This document shows, piece by piece, positions 1 through 5,873 of a stretch of 5,873 bases of DNA. The stretch covers positions 1 through 5,873 of the forward strand of contig SKYX01000106.1 of assembly GCA_007127655.1 (NCBI GenBank), in the 5' to 3' direction. The notes below the pieces were generated by a model. That model was not told the DNA's origin. It was given only the letters and a program-made list of their open reading frames with translations, and made no database searches. The DNA is from Desulfonatronum sp. Its GTDB lineage: Bacteria; Desulfobacterota; Desulfovibrionia; Desulfovibrionales; Desulfonatronaceae. The position numbers were made by a program, and so were the translations under genes. How positions within the stretch are numbered: the stretch's first letter is position 1; each line of letters starts with the position of its first letter.

Positions 1-341
1 AAGTCACCGTCAAGCTCGGGATAAAGAATTCCGTAACGTCCCTCACAACCAGCTCTTCCAAGCAACAACTGATCTTCCTGCACATAAACGGTGATGTTTT
101 CGGCGATATGCATTAGAGCTTTGGCCCAACGAAGAACCAGAGGCTGACCTTCCGTTTTCTGCATTGACTTGGTGAAGTACAGAGCGCGTTCGATATCAAT
201 GCGTGGTTTTTTCCCGTCAATTTTTTCAAGAAGCGTAAACACCCGGCTGTGCGTTTTTCTGAATTTGTCTTCCTTCCCATCAATCTGGTTGTAAAGCCGC
301 TCTTCCTGAGGCGACATGCATTCACATGTAAAGCGAGTCAT
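1..341 (-). CDS. islA: Glycyl radical enzyme, N-terminal part (probable isethionate sulfite-lyase IslA or close relative); runs off the window
   Basis: The reading frame is open from an ATG at 341 to the window edge and gives 113 residues of a protein that in this family is about 800 long. The start is fixed by an AGGAGT ribosome site 6 bases upstream. Landmarks of the pyruvate formate-lyase-like N-terminal domain are RALYFTKSMQKTEGQPLVLRWAKAL's pieces RALYFTKSM (52-60), TEGQPLVLRWAKAL (63-76) and GRYGILYPELDGD (101-113). The active-site cysteine and the C-terminal glycine loop lie outside the window. Such enzymes use a glycyl radical, installed by a radical-SAM activase, in the anaerobic cytoplasm. 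IslA splits isethionate into acetaldehyde and sulfite, which sulfite-respiring bacteria use as electron acceptor. Membership of the glycyl radical family is near certain. The IslA assignment is from remembered similarity of the GRYGILYPELDGD region and is moderate; a dihydroxypropanesulfonate lyase (HpsG-like) or other PflD-type enzyme is possible. G+C is about 46%, well below the plus-strand operon. A sigma-54 promoter lies about 100 bases upstream. Confidence 0.75.
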   Translation of the reverse strand, partial: MTRFTCECMSPQEERLYNQIDGKEDKFRKTHSRVFTLLEKIDGKKPRIDIERALYFTKSMQKTEGQPLVLRWAKALMHIAENITVYVQEDQLLLGRAGCEGRYGILYPELDGD

Positions 342-448
342 CTTTTTACTCCTGATATTTTTTTAATGAAAAAAATCTTTCATTTCAACATCTTTTTCTA
401 CAAAAGATAATGAAGTCTTGCTTGGCATCAATGTACTCCAACGACACT

Positions 449-466
449 AAGCATACTTTGTGCCAA
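449..466 (-). promoter_or_regulatory. Sigma-54 (RpoN) -24/-12 promoter for the glycyl radical enzyme
   Basis: The minus strand reads TTGGCACAAAGTATGCTT. It has the TGGCAC -24 block and ATGCT -12 block, with GG at 464-463 and GC at 452-451, exactly the GG-N10-GC spacing that sigma-54 requires. This predicts a transcript start near 439 and a leader of about 98 bases before the ATG at 341. Sigma-54 promoters need an ATP-dependent activator bound upstream, and candidate sites are present at 548-755. The activator gene is not in the window. Confidence 0.8.
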
Positions 467-482
467 TTTTCATAACCCAACA

Positions 483-547: not shown

Positions 548-564
548 ATTGTCGCAAATTTGCA
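548..564 (-). promoter_or_regulatory. Upstream motif copy 1, probable activator-binding site
   Basis: The minus strand reads TGCAAATTTGCGACAAT, with the perfect palindrome GCAAATTTGC at 554-563. It is centred about 120 bases upstream of the predicted sigma-54 start. It matches copy 3 at 15 of 17 positions and copy 2 at 14 of 17, including bases outside the palindrome. Together with copy 2, in inverted orientation, it forms 13-bp arms GCAAATTTGCACC/GGTGCAAATTTGC around a 38-base spacer. Confidence 0.6.
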
Positions 565-606
565 CCTGCGGCGAGGTTCGTGAAGCTCCGGCAAGGAGGG
601 GGGTGG

Positions 607-623
607 TGCAAATTTGCAATAAC
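607..623 (+). promoter_or_regulatory. Upstream motif copy 2, probable activator-binding site
   Basis: The plus strand reads TGCAAATTTGCAATAAC, with GCAAATTTGC at 608-617. Its centre is 54 bases from copy 1, about five helical turns, and about 174 bases upstream of the predicted start. It is inverted relative to copies 1 and 3. The purine-rich stretch just before it (GGAGGGGGG at 595-603) resembles a ribosome site, but no gene follows. Confidence 0.6.
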
Positions 624-738
624 AGGCTGCAACACTCTGACCCGAATAGCGCCTTCGGGCTTTCACAAAATACTGGCATGTGAGGAACTTGTGGCTTGTC
701 CCCGTTGAAAAAGACCGCTTGACAAGCTGTCACGTCTA

Positions 739-755
739 ATTGTTGCGAATTTGCA
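739..755 (-). promoter_or_regulatory. Upstream motif copy 3, probable distal activator-binding site
   Basis: The minus strand reads TGCAAATTCGCAACAAT. The core palindrome is imperfect here (GCGAATTTGC on the plus strand, 745-754). Its centre is 137 bases from copy 2, close to 13 helical turns, and about 310 bases upstream of the predicted start. Retention of the ACAAT side sequence shared with copy 1 argues for a real repeat rather than a chance AT palindrome. Confidence 0.55.
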
Positions 756-1701: not shown

Positions 1702-2049
1702 GGACGACCTCCGGATCAGCCGAATCGAAAGTATGCTGTGGACAAGAGCCAATAAACGCGCTTCGGAAGGGGAATAAAACGAAGTGTTGAACTCCAGCAA
1801 TCGAAGGTCCATGTCAAGTTTAAAAACATTCACGATCAGGGCAATTTTGTTCTCACTAATTATTTTTGCAAAGGCGGCAGGTTGACCTTGTTTTGAACAG
1901 CTCGAAACGTCATCACCGGCCTCGTCTCATCAAGCCATTGTTATAAAAACAAGAAGTTGTGCTCTTTGGGCTTGGCAAGACCTTGACGAAAGGTTCCTTG
2001 TTCAGTCAGACAACCGATCCGTCCCCAGCAGGTTCAACCAGCCGCAAAT

Positions 2050-2078
2050 TTTACAAATGGTTACGTGTGAGCAAAAAT
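2050..2078 (+). promoter_or_regulatory. Candidate sigma-70-type promoter of the rpsB operon
   Basis: TTTACA (2050-2055) matches the -35 consensus at 5 of 6 positions and is separated by 17 bases from AAAAAT (2073-2078), which matches the -10 consensus at 4 of 6. Transcription would start near 2085 and leave a leader of about 168 bases. An alternative, TTGCCA (2103-2108) with TAATTG (2126-2131), also has 17-base spacing but a poorer -10. The choice is by inspection only. Confidence 0.4.
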
Positions 2079-2110
2079 GTCCTAGGTTGCTTGATTTTTT
2101 GCTTGCCAGT

Positions 2111-2234
2111 TGTCCATTTTTAGCCTAATTGGACACGGTTCGAAATTCGCACATCCTCCGAGAAACCCGAGGGTCTTTCGTCCGTGACGAAAGTGAGCGG
2201 GTTCAAGTGCGGGGGGTGGAGGAAAAACCCACCA
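2111..2234 (+). promoter_or_regulatory. Structured rpsB leader RNA, possible S2 autoregulatory region
   Basis: The leader holds three potential hairpins. TGTCCA (2111-2116) can pair with TGGACA (2130-2135). AACCCG (2164-2169) pairs with CGGGTT (2198-2203) and encloses a perfect 8-bp hairpin CTTTCGTC/GACGAAAG (2175-2182/2186-2193) with a 3-base loop. GGTGG (2215-2219) can pair with CCACC (2229-2233), leaving much of a second Shine-Dalgarno-like GGAGG (2218-2222) in the loop. The true ribosome site AAGGAG (2240-2245) lies just after. In E. coli the rpsB leader binds S2 for feedback control; that this leader does the same is inference from position and structure. Confidence 0.4.
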
Positions 2235-2252
2235 GTTTTAAGGAGTATCGTT

Positions 2253-3050
2253 ATGGCGTACGTGACAATGAAGCAGATGCTGGAGACCGGGGTGCACTTC
2301 GGTCACCAGACCCGTCGTTGGAATCCTAAAATGAGGCCGTACATCTTCGGCGCACGCAACGGCATCCACATCATCGACCTGCAGCAGACCGTGAAGATGT
2401 TCCAGAAGGCCCACGACTTCATCGCCAATACCGTGGCCCAGGGCGGCAAGGTCATGTTTGTGGGCACCAAGCCCCAGGCCCGGGAGATCATCAAGCAGGA
2501 AGCCGCGCGGGTGGGCATGTTTTCCGTGACCCATCGCTGGATGGGCGGCACCTTGACCAACTTCCAGACCATTCGCAGCAGCATTCAGCGCTTGAAAAAG
2601 CTGGAGGCCATGTTCGAGGACGGGACCGTGAGCCGGTTCGTCAAAAAGGAAATCGTGCGCATGCAGCGCGACGTGGAAAAGCTGAATCTGGCCTTGGGTG
2701 GGATCAAGGATATGGAATCTCTGCCCCAGGCGGCTTTTGTCATCGACCCGAACCGGGAAGACATCGCCATTCAAGAGTGCCGCAAGTTGAACATTCCGGT
2801 AGTCGCCGTGGTGGACACCAACTGCGATCCGGATCTGATCGACTTCATCATCCCCGGCAACGACGACGCCATCCGGGCCATCAAGCTGTTCTCCGCGAGT
2901 ATCGCCGACGCCTGCACCGAGGGTGCCGCCAGGATGCGCGACATGGACCAGGCCGCTGAAAAGTCCGCCGAGGCCGCCCTGAATCAGGCCGCTGCGGAGG
3001 ACGAAGGGGCTGAAACGGAAATTGAAAACGACGCTACGGAGGAAAAATAA
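2253..3050 (+). CDS. rpsB: 30S ribosomal protein S2
   Basis: Encodes 265 residues, somewhat longer than the 241 of E. coli S2. S2 is a late-assembling protein of the small subunit, bound at the back of the 30S head. Family landmarks are [20 protein letters not shown] (6-25), FVGTKPQA (69-76), [11 protein letters not shown] (94-104), the FVIDPNRE block (162-169) and the C-terminal signature [20 protein letters not shown] (193-212). The extra length is a C-terminal tail from about residue 233, rich in Ala, Glu and Asp and typical of many non-enteric S2 proteins. The ATG at 2253 is chosen because AAGGAG lies 7 bases upstream and [11 protein letters not shown] is the usual family start. The frame is open further up to a GTG at 2184, but no ribosome site supports it. 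It is the first gene of the operon and its stop codon touches the tsf start. Confidence 0.98.
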
Positions 3051-3650
3051 ATGGCCATTTCCGCAAGTTTGGTAAAGGAGCTGCGCGAGTGTACCGGCGC
3101 AGGCATGATGGACTGCAAAAAAGCGCTGCAGGAGTGCGGCGGGGACCAGGAAAAGTCCAGGCTCTGGCTGCGTGAAAAAGGCCTGGCCAAGGCCCAGAAA
3201 AAGTCCGGCCGGGCCACGTCCCAGGGGTATATCGGGTCCTACATCCACTCCAACGGCAAGATCGGGGTGATGGTCGAACTGAAGTGCGAGACCGACTTCG
3301 TGGCCAAGAATGAGAAATTCCTGGAACTGGCCAAGGATCTGGCCATGCAGGTGGCCGCCACGGCTCCGTTGTGCGTGGCCCCGGAGGACATTCCGGAGGA
3401 CGTTCTGGAGCGGGAGCGCCAATTCGTCACCCAGCAGACCCGGGACGAGGGCAAGCCGGAAAACATCATCCCCAAGATCGTGGACGGTCGGATGAAGAAG
3501 TTCGCCCAGGAAGTCTGCCTCCTGGAGCAGGCCTTCATCAAGGACGACTCCCGCAAGGTTAAGGATCTGGTCACTGAAACCATCGCCGTGCTCGGCGAAA
3601 ACATCCAGGTCGGACGGGTCGTGCGGATGGTCCTGGGCGAAGAAGCGTAA
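3051..3650 (+). CDS. tsf: Translation elongation factor Ts
   Basis: Encodes 199 residues of EF-Ts, the nucleotide exchange factor that releases GDP from EF-Tu. The N-terminal UBA-like domain (about 1-50) contains VKELRECTGAGMMDCKKAL (8-26). The TDFVAKN motif (81-87), whose Asp and Phe reach into EF-Tu to disturb the Mg2+ and nucleotide site, is intact. The C-terminal domain ends NIQVGRVVRMVLG (184-196). At about 200 residues this is the short form, also seen in Thermus and in deltaproteobacteria, lacking part of the doubled core of the 283-residue E. coli protein. The ATG directly follows the rpsB TAA, and its ribosome site (ACGGAGG, 3036-3042) lies inside the last rpsB codons, so translation of the two is probably coupled. 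Confidence 0.98.
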   Translation: MAISASLVKELRECTGAGMMDCKKALQECGGDQEKSRLWLREKGLAKAQKKSGRATSQGYIGSYIHSNGKIGVMVELKCETDFVAKNEKFLELAKDLAMQVAATAPLCVAPEDIPEDVLERERQFVTQQTRDEGKPENIIPKIVDGRMKKFAQEVCLLEQAFIKDDSRKVKDLVTETIAVLGENIQVGRVVRMVLGEEA

Positions 3651-3666
3651 CAAAAGAAAGATGACT

Positions 3667-3694
3667 GTAGGGGCACGGCGCGCCGTGCCCCTAC
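3667..3694. repeat. Perfect 28-bp palindrome in the tsf-pyrH gap, dispersed-repeat type
   Basis: The arms GTAGGGGCACGGCG and CGCCGTGCCCCTAC are exact reverse complements with no spacer, centred between 3680 and 3681. Similar GTAGGGGC...GCCCCTAC units are, from memory, scattered through many deltaproteobacterial and cyanobacterial genomes as REP- or MITE-like intergenic repeats. In RNA it would form a very stable GC hairpin between the tsf stop and pyrH. No U run follows, so it is not a standard intrinsic terminator; it may stabilise or process the transcript. Confidence 0.85.
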
Positions 3695-3712
3695 GGTGAA
3701 CACGTTCAACGG

Positions 3713-3726
3713 GCGGCCTGGGCCGC
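3713..3726 (+). repeat. Short GC hairpin just before the pyrH ribosome site
   Basis: GCGGCC (3713-3718) pairs perfectly with GGCCGC (3721-3726) around a TG. A two-base loop is too tight, so the inner pair would open. It ends one base before the pyrH ribosome site GGAG (3728-3731) and could influence access to it. Such GC palindromes also arise easily by chance in this base composition. Confidence 0.3.
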
Positions 3727-3736
3727 TGGAGCCGAA

Positions 3737-4459
3737 ATGACGAACCTGCATTATCCCAGGATATTGCTGAAAATCAGCGGCGAGGCCTTGGCCGGGCCCA
3801 ACCAGTTCGGGATTGACCCCGAGACCATCGACACGTTCTGTCGGGAAATGGTCGAGGTCGCCGAACTGGGGGTTGAATTGGCCCTGGTGATCGGTGGAGG
3901 GAACATTTTTCGCGGTCTTTCCGCCGCCTCCCGGGGCATGGACCGTGCCGGAGCGGACTACATGGGCATGCTGGCCACGGTGATCAACTCCCTGGCCGTG
4001 CAGGACGGCCTGGAAAAGCTGGGGCTGAACACCCGGGTGATGACCGCCTTCCCCATGCAACAGGTGGCCGAACCCTACATTCGCCGTCGGGCCATCCGGC
4101 ATCTGGAGAAAAAGCGAGTGGTGATCTGCGCCGCGGGCACCGGCAACCCGTTTTTCACAACGGACACCGCCGCGGTCTTGCGCGGGGCCGAACTCAAGGT
4201 TCAGGCCATCCTCAAGGCCACCAAGGTGGACGGAGTTTACGACAAAGATCCGAAAAAAAATCAAGACGCCCGGTTGTTTTCGAACATCTCCTATATCGAC
4301 GTCCTGAAAAAGCGCCTGCAAGTCATGGATTCCACGGCTATTTCCCTGGCCATGGACAATAATTTGCCCATCGTGGTCTTCAATCTGTTCACCGCGGGCA
4401 ACATCAAACGGGTCGCTCTGGGAGAACCAACGGGAACGCTGGTCACAGGAGGAGAGTAA
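3737..4459 (+). CDS. pyrH: UMP kinase (uridylate kinase)
   Basis: Encodes 240 residues, the normal length for the hexameric bacterial UMP kinase of the amino acid kinase fold. It phosphorylates UMP to UDP with ATP in pyrimidine nucleotide synthesis and is unrelated to the eukaryotic enzyme. Visible motifs are [11 protein letters not shown] (10-20) for phosphate binding, [10 protein letters not shown] (51-60), the [15 protein letters not shown] region (70-84) for [18 protein letters not shown] (132-146) and [14 protein letters not shown] (161-174) for ATP. The ATG at 3737 follows GGAG with a 5-base spacer, and [11 protein letters not shown] starts a few residues later, as usual. An 86-base gap with two hairpins separates it from tsf, while frr follows after 2 bases. 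Confidence 0.98.
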
Positions 4460-4461
4460 AC

Positions 4462-5016
4462 ATGGCATCCGTACTGGACGACAACAAGGAACGTATGGAA
4501 AAATCCCTGCAAAGCCTGGACAAGGAGTTCAAGCGGTTGCGTACCGGTCGGGCCTCCTCGGCCTTGCTGGACGGGATTCGGGTGGACTACTACGGCACGT
4601 CGACCCCTTTGGATCAACTGGCTTCCATCTCCATCCCGGACAGCCGGACCATTTCCATCCAGCCCTGGGATCGCGGAGCGTTCAAGGATGTGGAAAAGGC
4701 CATCCTCAAGTCTGATTTGGGCCTGAACCCGGTCAACGACGGCAAAACCCTGCGGATCATCATCCCGTCCCTGACCGAGGAGCGGCGCAAGGAGTTGGTC
4801 AAGATCGCCAAGAAGTTCACCGAGGAGGCCAAGGTCAGCATCCGCAACATTCGGCGCGATGCCAACGACACGCTGAAGAAGCAGGAAAAGGCCAAGGAGA
4901 TCACTGAGGACGAGCTGCACAAGACCCAGGACGACGTCCAAAAGCTGACGGACGAATACATCGTCAAGACTGACGCCGTGTTCGCGGCCAAGGAAAAGGA
5001 AATCATGGAGATCTGA
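4462..5016 (+). CDS. frr: Ribosome recycling factor
   Basis: Encodes 184 residues, the standard size (E. coli 185). With EF-G it splits post-termination ribosomes so they can be reused. The long three-helix bundle domain comes from residues 1-29 and about 105-184, with the signature [23 protein letters not shown] (23-45) at the first helix and turn. The inserted beta domain includes [14 protein letters not shown] (47-60) and [20 protein letters not shown] (93-112). A helix rich in Lys and Glu forms the C-terminal half. The ATG lies 2 bases after the pyrH TAA, with a strong AGGAGGAG site (4448-4455) inside the pyrH end, so coupling with pyrH is likely. Its TGA stop is in frame with uppS. Confidence 0.98.
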
Positions 5017-5022
5017 GCCGAC

Positions 5023-5727
5023 TTGTCCTCCCTTCCCCGGCATATCGCCATCATCATGGACGGCAACGGGCGGTGGGCCGAAAAGCACGGCCTGCCGCGC
5101 ACGGAGGGCCACAAGGCTGGTACCAGCTCCGCCCGCAAGATCGTCACCCAGTGCCGCAAGCTCGGCATCCAGCACGTTACGTTCTATACCTTTTCCAAGG
5201 AGAACTGGTCTCGGCCCCGGGAGGAGGTCTCGTTTTTGTTCGAGATGCTCCAGTCGTATCTCAAGAGCGAGATGGATTCGCTACTGGAGCGGGACATCCG
5301 GTTGCATGTGCTCGGGGACTGGGACGAACTCCCCTTTGCCCTGCGCCAGATCCTGCGGCACGTCTGCTCCAAGAGCAGCCACTGCAAATCCATGGTCGTC
5401 AATCTGGCCCTGAACTACTCCGGCCGCGAAGAGATCCTCCGAGCCTGCCGAAAGCTCATCAGCCAGGGCATACCCGCGGATCGGATCACGGAACAACTCC
5501 TGGCCGACAATCTGGACACGGTCGGCCAGCCGGACCCGGACCTGATCATCCGGACCAGCGGCGAGCAGCGGTTGAGCAATTTTCTCCTGTATCAGGCCGC
5601 GTACAGCGAACTGGTCTTCACGCCGGTGATGTGGCCGGACTTTGACGAAAGTTGCCTGCAAGCGGCCCTGGACGAGTATTCCAGGCGTTCCCGACGGTTC
5701 GGGGGCCTGGAGCAACCCGCGGCCTGA
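5023..5727 (+). CDS. uppS: Undecaprenyl diphosphate synthase (cis-prenyltransferase)
   Basis: Encodes 234 residues. It adds isopentenyl units in cis to farnesyl diphosphate to make the C55 carrier lipid used for peptidoglycan and other envelope polymers. Motifs are HIAIIMDGNGRWA (7-19) with the catalytic Asp13, EGHKAG (28-33), TFYTFSKENWSRP (53-65), NYSGREEI (131-138) and IIRTSGEQRLSNFLLYQ (175-191) near the C-terminal end. The start must be TTG at 5023: the frr TGA at 5014-5016 closes this same frame, no ATG or GTG lies between, and the next ATG (5056) would delete half the catalytic motif. The best ribosome site is a GGAG at 5007-5010, 12 bases upstream, which is long and weak. Expression may depend on ribosomes finishing frr. 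Confidence 0.96.
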   Translation: MSSLPRHIAIIMDGNGRWAEKHGLPRTEGHKAGTSSARKIVTQCRKLGIQHVTFYTFSKENWSRPREEVSFLFEMLQSYLKSEMDSLLERDIRLHVLGDWDELPFALRQILRHVCSKSSHCKSMVVNLALNYSGREEILRACRKLISQGIPADRITEQLLADNLDTVGQPDPDLIIRTSGEQRLSNFLLYQAAYSELVFTPVMWPDFDESCLQAALDEYSRRSRRFGGLEQPAA

Positions 5728-5793
5728 CCCTTCCCGTTGCCTTTCTGATCACCTTTCTTTCACCCATCCTCGTCACGAGCCACCTGCATCATC

Positions 5794-5873
5794 ATGCCCC
5801 TGACCTCGCACCACAAACGCCTGTTGACCGGGCTGCTACCGTTGCCCATCCTGCTCTGGATTCTTTTTTCCGG
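5794..5873 (+). CDS. cdsA: Phosphatidate cytidylyltransferase (CDP-diacylglycerol synthase), N-terminal fragment
   Basis: The first 26 codons of a protein cut by the window end. It begins MPLTSHHKRLLTGLLPLPIL, with a basic KR followed by a hydrophobic helix, the usual opening of CdsA (KRxxTGL...). CdsA makes CDP-diacylglycerol from CTP and phosphatidic acid in the inner membrane for phospholipid synthesis. The identity also rests on the conserved order uppS-cdsA. The start is the only choice: a TGA at 5746 closes the frame upstream and no ATG, GTG or TTG lies between. No clear ribosome site precedes it, and the 66-base gap after uppS is pyrimidine-rich. The catalytic region is outside the window, so the call depends on position and a short N-terminus. 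Confidence 0.8.
   Translation, partial: MPLTSHHKRLLTGLLPLPILLWILFS

Follow-up and report, generated by a model that had tools for sequence, protein, structure and literature searches.

The three palindromic sites upstream of the glycyl radical enzyme gene islA in the analyzed Desulfonatronum stretch (5,873 nucleotides, hereafter the window) are very probably enhancer sites of an activator of the IslR (DVU2827) type, which would switch on islA from a predicted Sigma-54 promoter. This control system has already been proposed in print, and the window apparently holds an acquired member of a known regulon. The system is thus a known one, in a host whose genus mates lack the segment at their rpsB region, and its importer half is absent from the DNA examined. 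The features are the following:

3..341, minus strand: first 113 codons of islA, probably encoding isethionate sulfite-lyase (PF02901; best PDB relative IslA 7kq3); the gene runs off the contig
349..353, minus strand: likely ribosome-binding site AGGAG, read from the sequence
450..466, minus strand: predicted Sigma-54 -24/-12 promoter TTGGCACAAAGTATGCT, with GG at 464-463, GC at 452-451 and the predicted start near 439; aligned with orthologous promoters
470..477, minus strand: GGTTATGA block directly upstream of the -24 element, partly conserved in Desulfomicrobium-type islA promoters (alignment)
551..566, strand not applicable: operator A, GTCGCAAATTTGCACC, centred on 558.5 (-95.5 from the -24 GG), one mismatch to GTYGCAAATTTGCRAC, 24.9 bits
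605..620, strand not applicable: operator B, GGTGCAAATTTGCAAT, centred on 612.5 (-149.5 from the -24 GG), 20.5 bits
742..757, strand not applicable: operator C, GTTGCGAATTTGCAGC, centred on 749.5 (-286.5 from the -24 GG), 17.3 bits
913..1701, minus strand: TauE/SafE-family exporter gene (PF01925), upstream of the control region, probably unrelated cargo
1837..2085, strand not applicable: MITE-like dispersed element of about 250 bp, with short inverted repeats at its ends, at the foreign/host border; the assembly contains 36 stretches that match it, counting fragments and the element itself
2086..5873, plus strand: host chromosome by DNA identity with genus mates, carrying rpsB, tsf, pyrH, frr and uppS (names from translations) and the start of the next gene

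The first-pass annotation had described three copies of a 17-bp motif. All three were recovered at 548-564, 607-623 and 739-755 with an exact fit to TGCAAATTYGCRAYAAY, a pattern that has no further exact match and one further match with a single mismatch in the window's own assembly (2.76 Mb in 439 contigs). The number of copies stands and the unit has to be redrawn: it is not the 17-mer, it is a symmetric 16-bp palindrome, GTYGCAAATTTGCRAC, and therefore the plus and minus orientations assigned to the copies carry little meaning. The centre distances of 54 and 137 bp are as given before. With the palindrome matrix, which was made from relatives only and symmetrised, the three operators obtain the scores listed above and the next place in the 5.9-kb window 5.1 bits. 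The third-best score never exceeded 10.9 in 500 dinucleotide shuffles, and the best single score reached 20.5 once.

The palindrome recurs upstream of orthologous genes. At least one copy with at most three mismatches is present in 47 of 53 distinct, hand-picked islA upstream regions (shuffled mean 1.9), with at most two in 39 (shuffled mean 0.05) and with at most one in 25 (none in 20 shuffle rounds), where the counts are not independent because the regions are related; six of the 53 have no palindrome with three or fewer mismatches. When 80 named islA loci were scanned over their whole length, 41 had a site with at most two mismatches and 39 had none, and a single shuffling of these loci by single letters left no site in any of the 80. 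A few of these sites lie more than 1 kb away from islA. They were found in 18 of the 26 loci with an activator match of at least 57%, in 11 of the 22 with a less similar activator and in 12 of the 32 without an activator in the stretch.

A comparison across 101 genomes, the window's included, gave a similar picture. A glycyl radical enzyme match (E <= 1e-20) occurs in 30 of them and an islA-like one (at least 63%) in 29, and the palindrome with at most one mismatch is found at 48 places in 25 genomes. Thirty of these places precede the start of a glycyl radical enzyme gene by no more than 1 kb, 27 of them before an islA-like gene (site A of the window among them) and three before a paralogue; the other 18 do not precede such a gene. 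Perfect palindromes number 13, of which 12 precede islA and one is located in an hpsG-type locus. Motif and islA occur together in 18 genomes, the motif only in 7, islA only in 11 and neither in 65 (Fisher p 1.7e-7, kinship ignored); of the 25 genomes that have the motif, 18 thus have islA, versus 11 of the 76 that lack it, and 11 of the 29 islA genomes have no site with at most one mismatch. For the main part, the motif is neither missing upstream of orthologous glycyl radical enzyme genes nor spread over the genomes without relation to them. The presence of the palindrome in orthologous promoters supports the earlier proposal of enhancer-type sites ahead of a glycyl radical enzyme gene, predicted to serve a Sigma-54 activator.

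The Sigma-54 promoter that had been placed downstream of the sites is likewise predicted here, at 450-466 on the minus strand before islA. The support comes from the alignment with relatives, because the loose search pattern, which was composed after the site had been read, hits the window no more often than expected by chance (2 matches with at most two mismatches versus 1.8 expected). In the alignment with the Sigma-54 sites of eight relatives, the strings TTGGCAY and TGCT are shared. The candidate IHF site of the first-pass annotation had to be abandoned: matches to the IHF consensus with at most two mismatches are at chance level (33 versus 30.9 expected), one of which, at 483-495, falls between the promoter and the sites, and the promoter stretch holds none with at most one mismatch. 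An IHF-assisted promoter is therefore not supported, as there is no site with at most one mismatch between the -24 element and the enhancer and the looser matches are as frequent as expected by chance.

The arrangement of the sites was compared between orthologous promoters, with positions counted from the second G of the -24 GG, at most four mismatches per site and the window included in the counts for operators A and B. The proximal site lies at -93.5 to -95.5 in 30 of 36 promoters (window -95.5) and the middle site at -147.5 to -149.5 in 31 of 41 (window -149.5). In the 34 promoters that have both, their spacing is 52-54 bp in 31 (window 54) and 41-43 bp in the other three. Nine of ten promoters of the genus Desulfomicrobium have 143-146 bp between the middle and the distal site. 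In 26 other promoters this distance is 121-123 bp in 13 and 73-157 bp in the rest, including 138 bp at locus L117 (window 137 bp). The earlier suggestion that all three sites occupy nearly the same face of the DNA thus holds for the proximal pair, of which the 54-bp spacing is conserved, and fails for the distal site, of which the 137-bp spacing is not; as a conserved feature of operator C it can be discarded, since the middle-distal distance varies between relatives.

In many sulfate reducers islA is preceded by the same palindromes at corresponding distances, so these are likely the docking sites of the predicted activator IslR (DVU2827 type). The activator would respond to isethionate or to a product of isethionate, and its dimers would bind operators A and B, which should lie on one face because they are about five helical turns apart. 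The protein would then assemble into an ATPase ring and loop onto the Sigma-54 RNA polymerase at 450-466. A palindrome of 16 bp would also suit many dimeric repressors, and the sites could in principle belong to a different regulator of islA that does not act through Sigma-54. We regard this as highly improbable. Locations around -95 and -148 are characteristic of enhancers and not of repressors, the distance between the sites and the Sigma-54 element is nearly fixed, and islA-islB usually adjoin a gene for a Sigma-54 activator wherever the available DNA is long enough.

The enhancer reading does not extend to all sites in the same way. Many relatives (Desulfomicrobium, many Desulfovibrio) have a divergent Sigma-54 promoter that faces genes for a TRAP importer or an amidohydrolase, an arrangement that is common and not required for membership of the regulon. 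Among the 24 relatives that have a distal site together with a divergent Sigma-54-like element, the two are 110-115 bp apart in 19 (median 112.5 bp), with a whole range of 44.5-123.5 bp in which the script picked another palindrome in the outlier L067. Four more Desulfomicrobium promoters, just under the cut-off, have the divergent element (score 0.79) at 112.5-113.5 bp. Of ten Desulfomicrobium promoters, nine have the element 111.5-113.5 bp away with a score of 0.79-0.86; for L067, the remaining one, the distance was taken from the other palindrome. As this distance is 110-115 bp in most relatives, the most plausible role of the distal site is that of operator for the divergent promoter. Within the window the best score for such a promoter is 0.58 at 781-930, and 0.51 at 95-130 bp from operator C; the TauE gene occupies the place of the divergent promoter side. 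Operator C looks orphaned because its divergent promoter is missing; it probably served such a promoter in the ancestral locus, and in the window it may be a leftover or a helper.

The first-pass annotation had let operator C work together with A and B for islA. This is possible, though we doubt it. In its favour, the site is still recognisable despite the loss of the divergent promoter, and 137 bp is close to 13 helical turns, with a similar distance in L117. Moreover, over all 24 relatives the distances of the distal site to the islA -24 element and to the divergent element have similar standard deviations (16.7 and 17.5), a similarity that is caused by five outliers. Against it stand the narrow spacing to the divergent -24 element in 19 of the 24 relatives and in the four additional Desulfomicrobium promoters, and the fact that the distance to the islA -24 element varies by group (about -291 in Desulfomicrobium and about -270 in many Desulfovibrio; -286.5 in the window). 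We therefore favour operator C as the former operator of a divergent promoter.

The gene behind the promoter had been called a glycyl radical enzyme gene, in agreement with the PF02901 match of its start. Judged on the N-terminal 113 residues it is probably the isethionate sulfite-lyase IslA: against solved structures these residues score 155 bits to 7kq3, 135 to 5ymr and 114 to 6lon. The entry 5ymr, which we take to be the structure of the D. vulgaris IseG, was deposited under the name formate acetyltransferase, and 6lon is presumably an enzyme of the HpsG (sulfopropanediol dehydratase) type. The remainder of islA was searched for in the window's own assembly and not found. The orthologue in genome G035, a Desulfomicrobium-group protein, is 92% identical over the islA stretch of the window, and at full length it scores 1527 bits to IslA, 1503 to 5ymr and 1227 to 6lon. 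The name that NCBIfam would give, (2S)-3-sulfopropanediol dehydratase, was rejected on the basis of the higher score of this full-length orthologue to IslA. The family concerned, NF048011, does not separate IslA from the HpsG type, as an IslA orthologue (L062:8293-10785, minus strand; 1554 bits) and an HpsG-type paralogue (L220:7672-10146, minus strand; 1499 bits) score about equally, and both far exceed the cut-off of 1000. It may thus give IslA proteins a wrong name.

The activator had been described as unlisted. This does not hold, because the gene for a PAS/AAA+/HTH Sigma-54 activator found next to islA-islB in many relatives fits the published DVU2827 regulon and probably islR. The available extracts of a study from 2015 report DVU2827 sites predicted upstream of DVU2824 of D. 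vulgaris Hildenborough and its orthologues in five Desulfovibrionales genomes, with the DVU2824 enzyme taken for a pyruvate formate-lyase and DVU2827 described as a one-component Sigma-54 activator with the loop GAFSGA (BMC Genomics 2015, PMC4641369). IslA/IseG corresponds to UniProt Q727N1 according to extracts of PMC6453916. In D. alaskensis G20, islR is a predicted regulator gene that is genetically required for isethionate use: its knockout abolishes growth with isethionate, and the pathway is inducible (extracts of PNAS 2019, PMC6386719). A regulator with a PAS domain adjoins islB in Bilophila, according to the accessible part of PMC8667426.

In the locus of Nitratidesulfovibrio liaohensis (L161) the order is amidohydrolase, importer, islA, islB and activator (54%), and GTTGCAGATTTGCAAC precedes the importer-islA operon. 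This gene order fits that of DVU2820 to DVU2827, and the palindrome is alike. We take DVU2824 and UniProt Q727N1 (IslA/IseG) to be one gene. On the basis of locus order, the motif and activator of the window would correspond to the DVU2827 motif and to islR, and islR and DVU2827 would be orthologues. The window differs from the DVU2827 regulon in that the divergent promoter and the importer are missing. In addition, the loop published for DVU2827 is GAFSGA, whereas it is GAFTGA in locus L062, where islA is followed by islB and a PAS/AAA+/HTH activator; both forms occur among relatives (47 GAFTGA and 21 GAFSGA in 69 matches). The likeness to islR of D. alaskensis lies in a predicted regulator gene needed for growth on isethionate, but the extracts of PMC6386719 give neither its protein type nor its binding sites, and its equation with the DVU2827-type activator is thus presumptive.

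The literature searches returned no paper with both isethionate and DVU2827, nor one with isethionate sulfite-lyase, regulator and enhancer binding protein, and islR with isethionate was found in PMC6386719 only. A search for isethionate, sigma54, Desulfovibrio and regulator gave only a proteome study, the extracts of which do not link isethionate and Sigma-54, and extracts of PMC11668362 and PMC6453916 contain nothing on regulation. For the core string of the palindrome, nothing relevant appeared in the titles and abstract beginnings among the matches listed.

In relatives the activator gene lies downstream of islA, on the same strand and within 4.5 kb, in 18 of the 20 loci of one set; among the 80 named islA loci, which have some contigs in common with that set, it is so placed in 37, elsewhere in 9 and absent in 12, and the stretch is too short in 22. 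The contig breaks off within islA, so that no activator gene can be seen beside the operon in the window. The window's own assembly (84% complete) holds no orthologue of the activator, the best Sigma-54 activator reaching about 45% over part of the protein; for islB the comparison covered stretches of the own genome rather than the whole assembly. Both islB and the activator gene may follow past the end of the contig.

Within its genus the segment looks foreign, and the host chromosome begins at 2086, after the dispersed repeat. From there to the end of the window the DNA is 93.5% and 92.0% identical to that of two genus mates, which are alike to each other also upstream of this point, and positions 1-2085 have no match in the rpsB regions of seven genus mates. 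RpsB is 98% identical to that of genus mate G005 and 71-74% to those of the Desulfomicrobium-genus members listed (the genus names of the relative genomes were inferred). In a tree of the 113 IslA residues the window groups with four Desulfomicrobium-genus sequences (support 84), the other parts being poorly resolved. A Desulfomicrobium-like organism was probably the donor of the segment, which presumably was transferred into the present host. The DNA upstream of rpsB in a genus mate has no match in the host assembly, which is uninformative by itself, and RNA families and tRNAs were not found in the window.

It is unlikely that the contig is an assembly chimera, with the islA end stemming from a co-occurring Desulfomicrobium-like organism. 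Such a misjoin would account for the end of the host match precisely at the repeat border (2085/2086) and for the absence of the segment from all seven rpsB regions, and the assembly is fragmented (439 contigs) with 3.75% contamination. On the other hand, the repeat at the border belongs to the host's own family, and alignment with eight other copies showed that the copy of the window is about 16-23% different from the near-full-length ones compared, too much for an easy misjoin. Acquisition thus remains the preferred reading. The TauE gene has no relative at E <= 1e-15 in the 100 other genomes; its nearest matches are at 97% and 73%, followed by 57-58% in Burkholderiales among those with a named organism. 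A role of TauE in a sulfonate system found no support: in the loci compared (L039 onwards), apart from its own contig, only the Desulfosporosinus islA locus L189 has a relative, at 29%.

A more general view of the control region has, in our estimation, an even chance of being right. The region would be compact and have separate operators for two divergent Sigma-54 promoters: for the lyase two sites spaced by about five turns, and for the importer promoter one site at a distance of about 112 bp. The same operator letters would also serve hpsG, so that the activators would form a related family with a common 'sulfonate' operator, and the window would represent a half-deletion in which the lyase half moved to another genus without the importer half. 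The missing divergent half offers a natural experiment for assigning the sites to their promoters, and the sequence and geometry of the operators are now available in a directly testable form. Moreover, a regulon once filed under pyruvate formate-lyase is now tied to isethionate respiration, a source of hydrogen sulfide.

Copies of the palindrome with one mismatch, at L220:10310-10325 and L221:7559-7574, also precede a gene for a paralogous glycyl radical enzyme, at a distance of 186.5 bp. The first of these, an hpsG-type locus from the genus Desulfovibrio, resembles the window in this palindrome and has a perfect copy further on, but differs in its enzyme (61% to IslA and closest to 6lon) and in its activator, which is a different one (47%).
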